NCBI RefSeq assembly: GCF_002128425.1
Contig: NZ_NESS01000002.1
Location: 310,001 to 374,000 of the forward strand
Reading direction: 5' to 3'
DNA length: 64,000 nt
DNA from: Gottfriedia acidiceleris
GTDB taxonomy: Bacteria; Bacillota; Bacilli; Bacillales; Bacillaceae_G
Part shown: positions 6,555 to 43,552 of the stretch, piece by piece
Position numbering within the stretch: the stretch's first letter is position 1
Layout: each line of letters begins with the position of its first letter
Position numbers and translations under genes: made by a program
The notes under the pieces: model-generated
What the model saw: only the letters and a program-made list of their open reading frames with translations
Told to the model about the DNA's origin: nothing
Database searches by the model: none

Positions 6555-6940
6555 TATACTCATAAGTGGATCATGAGTTAGAAAAATAGCGAAAAGACGG
6601 ATTCTACTTACTCATAAGGTGTTCATGAGTAAGTAAAAAAGGGAAAAGATGGATTCTACTTACTCAAAAAGGGTTCATGAGTAAGTAAAATGGCGAAAAG
6701 ATGAACTTTATTTACTCATAAAGGGTTCATGAGTAAGTAAAAAAGGGAAAAGACGAACTCTATACTCATAAAGGGTTCATGAGTAAGTAAAAAAGGGAAA
6801 AGACGGATTCTACTTACTCATAAGGTGTTCATGAGTAAGTGAAAAAGGGAAAAGACGAATATACAACTCATAAAAGGTTCTTGAATAAGTAAAATAACAA
6901 AAATATGAAAATACCTTACTCATAAGGAATTCAAAAGTAG
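6555..6940. repeat. Tandem palindromic array A, 52-bp period, about 8 copies
   Basis: The motif TTACTCAT-N9-ATGAGTAA recurs with its right arm starting at 6573, 6625, 6677, 6729, 6779 and 6831, giving a period of 52 bp (one step of 50). Two more degenerate copies run to about 6940. Each unit can fold into an 8-bp hairpin. The linker between hairpins is also conserved (GTAAAAAAGGGAAAAGACG type), so this is a true tandem repeat rather than a spacer array. It lies between the lcfB terminator and the 3' end of the NERD gene. The same unit recurs at 24440-24870. Confidence 0.9.
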
Positions 6941-6982: not shown

Positions 6983-7891
6983 CTAAACAAAATAACTATA
7001 TTTCCCATGTCCTTCCATTTTGAAGTTTTCACGAAGGACTTTCCATATACCTTTTTTTGATTTATAAATTGCACACCACTCATAGACTACATTAGTGGTA
7101 ATTTTTCTATCTGGAAAGAGCAATTTCAGTTCTTCAATACTTCTTAATATTCCAATGGGAAGATCTTCTTCGTAGCCACAAGTTTGACATTTCAGTTTAC
7201 CCTTTTTAACTTCTGTAAAATACGTATTACAGTTAATACAGTTAATCCCCTTTATTAGTTTGTCATAGTGATATTTTGGATATTGTGTGTATTTTGACTC
7301 TGATTTGTGAAGTGTTAAAAATACTTCAGCGAGTCGAAAATGGTTAACATTTAATTTGAAATGTTGCATGTTTAATTCGTTTATTAAAAGATTTAATTGT
7401 GCTGGAAAAATAATGGGAAGGTTCATAGGGGCATTGAATAAAAAAAATTCGGGGTTTACAAAAACTAAATGAGGTATTATTTTAAAATGAATCTTGTCTT
7501 CATTTAATAATTTTCGTAACATAGATTCTGTTCTTTTAAGCTGTTCGTAAGGGTTTTTTATTTCAGTCTTTGGGGTTTTATACCATCGATCTCCTTCAAT
7601 ATAATAATCTCCTTCGTAATTTTTCACTTCAAATAAATGGATTGTTTCTCCAGAGATACCAATCGAATCAATTTGGAATTCTGATTTGTTACATTCGAAC
7701 AATAAATCGTTAAGAAAAAGCCAATTATCTGAGAGTTTTGAAGTCCATTCATCAAATTTCTTCTCACCTTCGAACCCTTTTTCTAAATAGGATAAGTATG
7801 CTAATTCCTCATCGGATAGACTACTCCTAGCATTTAATCTTTGATAAATCCTTAAATCATTTGATTTAAATCGTTCTTTTAGATTTTTCAT
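6983..7891 (-). CDS. NERD-domain protein with C-terminal zinc ribbon
   Basis: This 302-aa protein contains a nuclease-related (NERD) domain around residues 35-150. The conserved order is GEKKF, an aspartate in QIDSIGIS and LFEVKNYEG, resembling the D-ExK core of restriction-like nucleases. A C-terminal zinc ribbon holds two CxxC pairs (CINC and CQTC). Nuclease activity in NERD proteins is predicted from fold, not shown here. The start at 7891 is used because AAAGGA lies 8 bases before it; the ATG at 7900 overlaps that ribosome site. The gene is monocistronic, and repeat array A sits just past its 3' end. Confidence 0.8.
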   Translation of the reverse strand: MKNLKERFKSNDLRIYQRLNARSSLSDEELAYLSYLEKGFEGEKKFDEWTSKLSDNWLFLNDLLFECNKSEFQIDSIGISGETIHLFEVKNYEGDYYIEGDRWYKTPKTEIKNPYEQLKRTESMLRKLLNEDKIHFKIIPHLVFVNPEFFLFNAPMNLPIIFPAQLNLLINELNMQHFKLNVNHFRLAEVFLTLHKSESKYTQYPKYHYDKLIKGINCINCNTYFTEVKKGKLKCQTCGYEEDLPIGILRSIEELKLLFPDRKITTNVVYEWCAIYKSKKGIWKVLRENFKMEGHGKYSYFV

Positions 7892-8147
7892 ATTCCACAT
7901 CCTTTCAATCTATTATTACATAATTATAAACATAATAACTTGACGATTTTTTACTATTTTATTAATTGAGTATTGTTTAGACTTATTTCACACAAATTTT
8001 ACACTTTTTTAAGATTTATATGATATAGTTCTTTTAATTTGAAAAGAAATGATTTTTAAATCTAAAAATTATGGTTTATGAAAGTAGATTGCAAGCTAAG
8101 AATAAAAATAATCTAAATAAAATCATATTATCGAGTGAGTGAAAGAA

Positions 8148-21957: not shown

Positions 21958-24175
<2,218 letters not shown>

Positions 24176-24182
24176 AATGTGA

Positions 24183-24216
24183 AACTCGTAAACTTAGTTG
24201 TTTGCGAGTTTTTTTT
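24183..24216 (+). terminator. Terminator of the hut operon
   Basis: AACTCGTAAAC (24183-24193) pairs with GTTTGCGAGTT (24200-24210) and is followed by T8. Confidence 0.9.
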
Positions 24217-24244
24217 GTAGGTAAGGGCGGCAAATAATACTGTG

Positions 24245-24332
24245 TAAAGTGCAAATAGGAGATGTGTGACTGCAAATAAGAGATCAAGAGCTGGTGATAA
24301 GTGCAAATAAAAATTTCAAAAGTGTAAATATA
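24245..24332. repeat. Phased TGCAAATA repeat, copy 1
   Basis: TGCAAATA-type motifs begin at 24250, 24271, 24302 and 24323, spaced 21, 31 and 21 bases, which is about 2, 3 and 2 helical turns. The last copy is TGTAAATA. The same motif with exact 21-base spacing occurs at 43431-43545. Confidence 0.75.
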
Positions 24333-24439
24333 ATCGAAAAATTGCTAGTGGCAAGCGAGCTTGCTATAATCAAAATGAGAATAAATGTTCGACTGATTTT
24401 AAAAAAATAATAATTATAGAAATCTACACAGGTTGATCA

Positions 24440-24870
24440 AGTATTAACTCCAAAAGAGTTCATGAGTAAGCAAAAAAGCAAAAATAGTAAATTTAGTAAC
24501 TCATAAAGGGTTCATGAGTAAGAAAAAAGCAAAATTAAGAAATATAGTAACTCATAAAGGGTTCATGAGTAAGTAAAAAAGCAAAATTAAGAAATATAGT
24601 AACTCATAAAGGGTTCATGAGTAAGTAAAAAAGCAAAATTAAGAAATATAGTAACTCATAAAGGGTTCATGAGTAAGTAAAAAAGCAAAAATAATAAATT
24701 TAGTAACTCATAAAGAGTTCATGAGTAAGTAAAAAAGCAAAAATAGTAATTTTAGTAACTCATAAAGAGTTCATGATTAAGTAAAAAAGCAAAAATAGTA
24801 ATTTTAGTAACTCAAATGGTTCATGAGTAAGTAAAAAAACAAAACTATTTAATTTAGTAGCTCATAATAG
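24440..24870. repeat. Tandem palindromic array B, 52-bp period, 8 copies
   Basis: ATGAGTAA right arms start at 24462, 24514, 24565, 24617, 24669, 24721, 24773 (degenerate) and 24823, a period of 52 bp with single steps of 51 and 50. Left arms read AACTCAT, so each unit folds as (T)ACTCAT-N9-ATGAGT(A). Linkers are conserved (AAGTAAAAAAGCAAAA...TTTAG type). The array ends just before the ribosome site of the gene at 24887. Core and period match array A at 6555-6940. Confidence 0.9.
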
Positions 24871-24886
24871 AAAAGGAGGAAGAGTT

Positions 24887-25456
24887 TTGTTAAATAATGA
24901 ATCAAAAAGAAAAATAATTCTAGATTTAGCAGTTACATTAGATGGTTTTATTGAAGGGAAAAACGGAGAAGTTGATTGGTGCATAATGGACCCTGAAATG
25001 GAATTCTCAAATTTCTTGAATCAAATAGATACTATTTTATATGGTCGTAAGAGTTATGATTTATGGGGACATTATATTCCAAGCATAGATGACTCTGTAT
25101 CTGATAAAGAAATGTGGGATTTAGTTCATAGCAAGGAAAAATATGTGTTTTCCAGAACTCAAACAAATGATGATAATAATGCAAAATATATAAATAAAAA
25201 TATAGTTGAAGAAGTAAATAAATTAAAAGAGCAGCCAGGTAAAGACATCTGGTTATATGGCGGATCGAGCCTTATTACAACATTTATAAATTTAGGCCTA
25301 GTAGATGAATTTAGAATATCAATCCATCCTGTTATATTAGGAGAAGGAAAACTTTTGTTTGTAGACATTAAACAGAGAAAAAATTTAATTATGATGAAAA
25401 CGAGAACTTTTTCTTCTGGAGTTGTTCAGGTTATCTATTATTTGAATGAAGAATAA
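24887..25456 (+). CDS. RibD C-terminal/dihydrofolate-reductase-like protein
   Basis: This 189-aa protein has the RibD-C/DHFR-like fold. It begins KRKIILDLAVTLDGFIEG, has the LYGRKSYDLWGH motif near residue 60, the nucleotide-binding DIWLYGGSSLITTF and DEFRISIHPVILGEGKLLF. Relatives (YyaP/YwjB type) are presumed NADPH-dependent reductases of unknown substrate. The start is a TTG with a strong AAAAGGAGG site, so it should be well translated. Repeat array B occupies the whole region upstream, so its promoter must lie in or before the array. Confidence 0.85.
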   Translation: MLNNESKRKIILDLAVTLDGFIEGKNGEVDWCIMDPEMEFSNFLNQIDTILYGRKSYDLWGHYIPSIDDSVSDKEMWDLVHSKEKYVFSRTQTNDDNNAKYINKNIVEEVNKLKEQPGKDIWLYGGSSLITTFINLGLVDEFRISIHPVILGEGKLLFVDIKQRKNLIMMKTRTFSSGVVQVIYYLNEE

Positions 25457-33408: not shown

Positions 33409-33521
33409 ATAATACTATTATGTAAACAAAGTATATTTATTTTTGGGAATTTTTCCATAAATGTCTTTTCTTTATCATATAAATATAGTAAACTGTGTTA
33501 TATTCAATATAACTAAATAAT

Positions 33522-33623
33522 CCTTATCGAGAGCGGTGGAGGGACTGGCCCTTTGAAACCCGGCAACTTTAGCGAAAGCTAAAAAGTGCTAAATCCAGCA
33601 TGTTTAAAACATGAGAGATAAGG
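33522..33623 (+). ncRNA. SAM-I (S-box) riboswitch aptamer
   Basis: The conserved S-box core is clear: CTTATCGAGAGCGGTGGAGG, GACTGGCCC, GAAACCCGGCAAC, a GCGAAAGC-capped hairpin, a GTGCTAAATCC segment and the closing GAGATAAGG that pairs with the 5' CTTATC. Bound SAM turns the downstream genes off. It controls the yitJ-metH pair. Confidence 0.95.
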
Positions 33624-33638
33624 CGTAATCTACATTTT

Positions 33639-43414: not shown

Positions 43415-43552
43415 AGTGCAAAGGTTAGACTGCAATTAAAAACTGTGAAAGTGCAAATAAAAAAGGTAAAACTGCAAATAAAAATTGGGTAAGAGCAATT
43501 AAAAAGATCGAACCTTCAAATAAAATCACTAAAACAGCAAATAAGAGCATGA
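43415..43552. repeat. Phased TGCAAATA repeat, copy 2
   Basis: Six copies of a TGCAAATAAAAA-type motif begin at 43431, 43452, 43473, 43494, 43515 and 43536, an exact 21-base period (two helical turns), with a further partial copy at 43417. Short A-runs follow each core, so A-tracts are in helical phase. The same motif occurs at 24250-24332. Confidence 0.8.

Follow-up and report, generated by a model that had tools for sequence, protein, structure and literature searches.

Array B, a run of eight units of about 52 bp in the genome of Gottfriedia acidiceleris, belongs to a family of tandem arrays whose period is rigid while the linkers drift. In the same arrays the dyad is better conserved than the linker, the units are homogenised, and copy number shifts fast at fixed sites. 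It is the pitch rather than the linker that is conserved, in arrays that turn over fast between close species. The window analysed is a stretch of 64,000 nucleotides, and positions are given within it unless a locus is named; the genome that it comes from is referred to below as G000 or as the own genome.

Arrays A and B and the distribution of their family

Two arrays of the family lie in the window, about 17.5 kb apart. The + strand of an array was defined as the strand carrying the A-rich linker 3' of the dyad.

24445..24867, + strand: array B, eight units of ~52 bp, each with an A-rich linker after the imperfect dyad TWACTCAT-N9-ATGAGTAA (TRF and unit spacings)
24649..24700, + strand: typical unit of array B, dyad then linker (sequence)
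6557..6903, + strand: array A, seven units of the same family as array B (TRF and unit spacings)

Using TRF, array B was resolved at 24445-24867 with a period of 52, 8.2 copies and 92% matches, and its unit spacings are 52, 51, 52, 52, 52, 52 and 52. In each unit an A-rich linker of ~27 bp comes after the imperfect dyad, whose consensus is TTACTCAT-N9-ATGAGTAA. Array A, flanked by an acyl-CoA ligase-like gene (+) and, convergent with it, a NERD-domain gene (-), was resolved at 6557-6894 with a period of 52, 6.6 copies and 84% matches, with spacings of 52, 52, 52, 50, 52 and 50. A preliminary description of this DNA had assigned both arrays one core and one 52-bp period with differing linkers, which agrees with the TRF periods, the modal spacing of 52 and the linkers themselves (AAAAAAGCAAAA in array B and AAAAAAGGGAAAAG in array A, the latter with GGGAAAAG where array B has GCAAAA). 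The NERD-domain gene beside array A (window 6983-7900; L107, L109, L110, L111 and L112 in relatives) was also looked at, and inner stops were counted in G005, G010 and G011; its match is split in G002 and G009.

BLAST of array B against the own genome gave 35 matches at 27 loci, which is far above chance (second-best place, E 2.9e-123), and 25 of the 27 have at least two units at E <1e-3. Six loci (L010, L012, L013, L019, L024 and L030) reach a contig end, and L010 and L012 have an identical 60-base block. As contig-end loci may be halves of the same arrays, the true number in the own genome is about 24-27. The contig ends inside arrays are the start of C45, both ends of C10, the ends of C2 and C16 and the start of C4; the assembly thus seems to break at the repeat, and array lengths there are incomplete.

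To follow the family across relatives, a covariance model built from 75 two-dyad sequences was employed, with 150 candidates scored per genome, so that high counts may be lower bounds. This gave 136 matches in G000 and 133, 111, 106, 101, 79, 76, 38, 26 and 22 in nine other members of the genus, with no match in genus members G001, G004 and G008 or in six other members of the family. BLAST of 60 genomes returned matches in 11. Ten of these are among the 13 genus members, counting the own genome; the 47 genomes of other genera yielded a single match, 32 bp long. A pattern scan of an 84,980-species genome collection, in which the exact pattern misses diverged units and records near the window's genome were possibly excluded, found two stretches, in Bacillus sp. 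FJAT-25509 and AFS001701. At one array site Bacillus sp. FJAT-25509 is orthologous to G009, with flanks 92-97% identical. Judged from these sequence searches, the array B family is dispersed and clade-specific. Among the papers listed in literature searches, no title or abstract describes this family, subscription journals being mostly outside the scope of those searches.

An origin from the mobile genome was considered and rejected: plasmid and phage collections gave no match (blastn, E 1e-5), and neither did viral contigs (one exact pattern).

Rigid pitch, drifting linkers and turnover of units

For determination of the pitch, 256 adjacent spacings were collected at 55 array loci, after L041 had been dropped as spurious and L003-L006 as duplicates. 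Of these spacings 252 fall within 40-60 bp, and 218 of the 252 are exactly 52, leaving 34 that deviate; the four outside this range are 38, 78, 102 and 104. The 55 loci share ancestry, some being orthologous and six lying at own contig ends, and are therefore not independent. The preliminary description had named variable periods in other arrays as evidence against its proposal. A spacing of 52 was modal at 40 of the 44 loci with at least three units, and the remaining four have just two, differing, spacings each.

The linkers behave differently. Adjacent units spaced by exactly 52 differ by a mean of 7.9 mismatches per 52 positions (198 pairs). The comparison of linker consensus proposed earlier was carried out across 23 own arrays, whose consensus units differ at 12.2 of 52 positions overall, with 8.5 of 27 differing in the linker (about one third) versus 3.7 of 25 in the dyad. 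For each mismatch there are ~0.017 net length changes in the arrays (34 off-52 spacings against 7.9 mismatches per pair), compared with 0.17 in the noncoding flanks of orthologous loci (137 indels, 800 substitutions). The first value is the net change in spacing from one unit to the next, and the second counts gaps in between-species BLAST alignments; since the two statistics differ, the flank pairs overlap and the array loci share ancestry, the deficit of length changes is roughly tenfold, not exact.

A period of 52 bp is about five helical turns, so that the 25-bp dyads face one side of the DNA. Our leading interpretation, which we hold tentatively and at slightly less than even chance, is that the dyads are helically phased DNA-level sites for an inferred protein, carried in arrays that expand and spread in the manner of BIME or BOX elements. 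A dimer of a sequence-specific protein would bind each dyad, and the in-phase spacing would allow neighbouring dimers to cooperate, loop or stack into a complex. Such a complex would act on the chromosome, through organisation, insulation or segregation, and not on one gene. Unequal recombination or slippage would create new units, and those that break the phase would tend to disappear. The preliminary description had set selection on spacing against a dispersed repeat family as alternatives. Both hold together, in that the family is dispersed and clade-specific and the period is far steadier than the linkers; selection of the spacing for protein binding is inferred, as are the binding protein and the role of the arrays.

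Constraint on the dyad was examined at its stem. One stem position has A..T as its prevailing form in 22 of the 23 own arrays, L028 having one A..T and one G..T unit, and C..G prevails in all three fetched G010 arrays, at the array-A site of G011 and in two of three G005 arrays. In one of three G012 arrays C..G occupies half of the scored units, and mixed pairs also occur. A two-sided change was seen at the two copies of this position in 8 and 9 of the 75 rows. Paired cells, two-sided-change cells and the covariation score all lie above all 500 shuffles, although related rows can beat shuffles without structure. Two other counts do not stand out: as many pairs with a two-sided change were reached by 150 of 500 shuffles, and as many pair types by 381 of 500. 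Two of the nine stem pairs (columns 4/32 and 6/30, with their counterparts) are unpaired in 39-45 of 75 rows. As only one stem position has many two-sided changes, support for constraint on the dyad comes mainly from that position, and the dyad-preserving double changes could stem from hairpin template-switch repair instead.

Copy number varies widely at one and the same site, as beside a PH-domain gene that is present in all 13 genomes. At E <0.01 this site holds 16 units in G000, 9 in G007, 5 in G012, 3 in G006, 1 in G005 and at least 1 in G003, where the contig ends. No units were counted in G009, G010 and G011, which have weak matches (E 0.015, 0.27 and 0.033, respectively) and visible remnants, and none in G001, G002, G004 and G008. 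The array-A site, scanned at seven loci, holds 14 units in G006, 7 in G000, 6 each in G005 and G010, 5 in G011, 2 in G009 and 1 in G002. Whole-locus BLAST grouped the loci into 11 graph components, one of which merges the array-A and PH-domain-gene sites and another two own contig ends. With arrays absent from three genus genomes and their sites variable, no single array is essential. Differences per 52 positions average 10.4 between units within an array (48 arrays), 13.8 between orthologous arrays (27 pairs) and 15.7 between other sites of the same genome (275 pairs). Units are more alike within than between arrays, and so the arrays evolve in concert.

The array ends were then compared. Many right ends bear a distinct half-site, GAAAATAMCWTACTCATAA, as judged by eye. 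A further feature on that side, at 8 of the 55 loci (six independent sites), is the right arm of a palindromic element of larger size, core GGAAAGCGAG, always in the same orientation (at most 6 of 22 positions mismatched); at equal stringency 454 kb of own DNA contained 6 matches to this arm. Half-site and further arm together hint at a composite, BOX-like unit, for which a constant left end is not established. A larger palindromic interspersed element with core GGAAAGCGAGC and ends like TTGATTGGAACGG and GGAAATCAAC was noted at L140, L145, L152, L174, L181, L182, L186 and L206, and its right arm recurs on the right of some 52-bp arrays.

These properties bring in a serious rival, to which we give a little over one chance in three: an interspersed satellite of the BIME or BOX kind, selfish or neutral, which spreads and amplifies in tandem and has no host function, 52 bp being simply the unit length inherited through whole-unit copying. 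Homogenisation within arrays can propagate one common unit length. The range from weak remnants to 16 units at a single site, the rise of divergence from within arrays to orthologous arrays to other sites, and the half-site and larger-element arm recurring at right ends all fit such a satellite, as does the array after hutG, which is present in G000 and missing from 11 relatives read for 1.5 kb. It does not readily account for the roughly tenfold scarcity of length changes, per mismatch, relative to flanking noncoding DNA, nor was a mobilising enzyme seen with the arrays (Y1 family searched).

The palindromic repeat families of bacteria are commonly put down to transposases or to RNA hairpins. 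Y1_Tnp matches were detected in 8 of the 13 genomes, 7 of them over the cut-off, and are mostly fragments. Y1 transposase genes without inner stops occur only in G010 and in array-free G004, which has five matches; the others are fragments or have stops. The G010 copy (L061:1432-1950), with undetermined bases near its start and no inner stops, looks like an ordinary IS200-type tnpA. The Y1 loci L061-L072, covering up to ~1.5 kb on each side, contain no array match at E up to 1. Within the Y1 family searched, a RAYT/Y1 transposase was rejected as the mobiliser, because the G010 copy looks ordinary, array-free G004 has matches, the rest are fragments or have stops and the Y1 loci hold no units.

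The array B locus and the placement of arrays

Array B occupies the slot between hutG and a RibD_C-domain gene, which is made up as follows.

23207..24175, + strand: hutG, last gene of the hut operon, upstream of array B (named by reading of the ORF)
24181..24216, + strand: intrinsic terminator between hutG and array B (stem-loop at 24181-24212 with a T tail)
24342..24370, + strand: promoter of the RibD_C gene, TTGCTA - 17 - TATAAT (counterpart kept in 7 relatives)
24378..24391, + strand: LexA-box-like sequence AGAATAAATGTTCG beside the RibD_C promoter (AGAACAAATATTCG in 5 of 7 relatives)
24875..24879, + strand: ribosome-binding site GGAGG of the RibD_C gene (sequence)
24887..25456, + strand: RibD_C-domain gene, 189 aa, whose leader contains array B (ORF and Pfam-type scan of flanking proteins)

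An orthologue of hutG was found in 13 of 13 genus genomes, and a unit array 3' of it in G000 only, the 1.5 kb read in 11 others being reduced to 330 bases in G003. The RibD_C promoter is among the matches of a promoter scan, but such matches were no commoner than in shuffles, and the evidence for it is its conservation: of the 13 genomes eight could be anchored, and in each of these a promoter precedes the gene. The -10 box and the start codon are separated by 56-84 bases in seven relatives versus 516 in G000, and most of the extra leader length is array B. As far as these alignments can be read, array B is an insertion between the conserved promoter and the RibD_C gene that is unseen in readable relatives. 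The relatives align on either side of it, but the G000 flanks are too diverged for the insertion boundary, and hence any target-site duplication, to be defined.

The element at 24378-24391, which we take to resemble a LexA box, lies in the same place in eight genomes, and the G000 change is in the opposite half-site to that of the relatives. Degenerate repeats of ~18-21 bp with core GCAAATAA occur at window positions 24240-24330 and 43420-43505, and several relatives have them in the hutG-RibD_C slot as well.

Array B ends at 24867, directly before GGAGG at 24875-24879 and the TTG start at 24887, as the preliminary description had it. Having landed in a probable transcribed leader, array B may well change expression of the RibD_C gene, as a local effect of one copy. 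The same description had also placed hairpins in the 5' leader of this gene; for array B the position is supported, with the promoter upstream, but no general leader or hairpin role emerged from the 21 own arrays with ORFs on both sides. Six of these are convergent, 2 divergent and 13 co-directional, the last comprising 7 with the array strand and 6 against it. For all 48 loci with ORFs on both sides the corresponding numbers are 17 convergent, 5 divergent, 16 with and 10 against; these counts come from simple ORF calls, some of them short, at loci that are partly orthologous.

An element working at the RNA level, with transcribed hairpins that stabilise, terminate or attenuate transcripts and array B acting as the RibD_C leader, is improbable in our estimate, at roughly one chance in nine. 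It would suit the position of array B between a conserved promoter and a ribosome site and the 16 to 10 excess over all 48 loci, and the RNA of two dyads does fold better than shuffles (z -3.9 on the + strand and -7.0 on the - strand). The own genome, at 7 to 6, shows no such excess, however, and a single + strand RNA hairpin is weak, at just -4.3 kcal/mol. Of 25 gene 3' ends that face an own array, 12 have a strong terminator ahead of it, compared with 1 of 25 in a single mononucleotide shuffle (L029 left out of the count), and at the PH-domain-gene site the array sits between two convergent terminators. The near-equal strand counts of the own genome and these terminators speak for the DNA-level reading, against which the 16 to 10 count stands. 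No terminator-like site was found within array B on either strand. Neither array matches an Rfam family at the gathering threshold, the sole match in the window being a SAM riboswitch at 33521-33624 (RF00162, 90 bits).

The arrays avoid coding sequence. None of the 27 own loci overlaps a retained ORF of at least 70 aa (slack 40-60 bases), and 3 of 28 loci in relatives (L032, L039 and L056) overlap a simple ORF call. With replication-strand polarity or a macrodomain in view, array places were mapped in G011 and G002, where they are scattered over the chromosome with strands mixed; as grouped here, 5 of 6 arrays in the first half of G011 are on the + strand and 4 of 7 in the second half are on the - strand.

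We also weighed a tandem operator bank, in which one ordinary regulator controls the genes beside each array. The dyad symmetry is typical of dimeric regulators, and MarR and GntR regulators are encoded beside two arrays. The 27 flanking proteins scanned, 26 of them with a Pfam match, nevertheless have no common theme, and many arrays lie at gene 3' ends. Nor was a single source dyad, at up to 3 mismatches, present in nine array-free genomes of the genus and family. On this evidence we consider an operator bank very improbable, the least probable of the explanations weighed.

Other phased repeats and known repeat systems

Other repeats of the clade were surveyed for their periods. In array-masked intergenic DNA from 400 kb of G002, strong repeat lags were obtained at 21, 42, 62, 63, 84, 105, 124 and 126 bp; they were missing from the G001 sample, and G000 gave only a weak peak at 20. 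Samples of five genomes contained 25 noncoding tandem arrays of at least 2.5 copies, with periods mostly of ~20-21, 41, 51-52 (one as 102), 61-62 and 84. Array-free G001 has one of these, with a period of 21. The clade's other noncoding tandem periods, mostly ~20-21, 41-42, 61-62 and 84 bp, likewise lie near whole helical turns, a point in favour of phased sites; off whole turns, and counting against them, lie the periods 80 and 18 and single spacings of 46, 42 and 38, and the GCAAATAA repeats are less regular, mixing 18 and 21 bp.

Among the G002 loci L133-L152, tandem arrays of 21, 42 and 62 bp have cores like TTCGTTGATA and TATCAACGAA (for example L145:15838-16059, L134:18979-19188, L137:9645-10205 and L149:2181-2455). 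The 62-bp array (L137) adjoins hutG, the same slot as that of array B in G000. In relatives GCAAATAA or ATCAACGA repeats stand in the hutG-RibD_C slot in place of array B. A broader proposal, which we rate at about one chance in four, is that the clade fills intergenic slots with putative protein-binding arrays whose pitch is a whole number of turns (~21, 42, 52 and 62 bp, for 2, 4, 5 and 6 turns), unrelated repeats swapping in the same slots. If this were true, selection would act on phase and array presence and not on one sequence, in an architectural system that spans the chromosome, evolves fast and has one or more DNA-binding proteins of its own.

With a family of this kind, the old question of a DNA-architectural role for dispersed bacterial repeats becomes directly testable, and orthologous sites with unequal unit numbers provide a natural dosage series.

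Several known systems are similar in part. The REP/BIME and REPIN elements of Pseudomonas and enterobacteria occupy many sites as short extragenic palindromes, which in some cases form ordered tandem clusters (PMC3116915, PMC3733652). The array B family has in common with them short extragenic palindromes in many copies, as the 136 model matches in G000 attest. It differs in its fixed 52-bp pitch and drifting linkers, in lacking the conserved GTAG or CGTC tag described for the end of REP palindromes (PMC3733652; column counts, 75 sequences), and in having no Y1/RAYT linked to the arrays, in contrast to the repeat-flanked RAYT of REP/BIME.

CRISPR arrays also consist of regular, palindrome-containing repeats, but their spacers are unique, whereas the linkers of array B are homologous to each other, with conserved G and A positions. 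The F plasmid centromere parS (sopC) has twelve 43-bp tandem repeats with inverted-repeat protein sites (PMC6238139), and tandem inverted-repeat sites are likewise found in the array B family. Unlike sopC, the family is chromosomal, occurs at two dozen or more places in one genome and was not found in the plasmid and phage collections. Centromeres of the ParB/parS type are bound by a ParB-like protein that is usually encoded close by; no partition gene was present among the 27 scanned proteins flanking 52-bp arrays. The BOX elements of Streptococcus pneumoniae, boxA-boxB(n)-boxC, are interspersed and have a variable number of tandem inner modules (PMC3049150). A variable module count is common to both, with 0 to 16 units of the array B family at one orthologous site. 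Of possible counterparts to the constant outer modules on both sides of BOX, the right half-site GAAAATAMCWTACTCATAA is recurrent and the further right arm is present at 8 of 55 loci, with no constant left module established.
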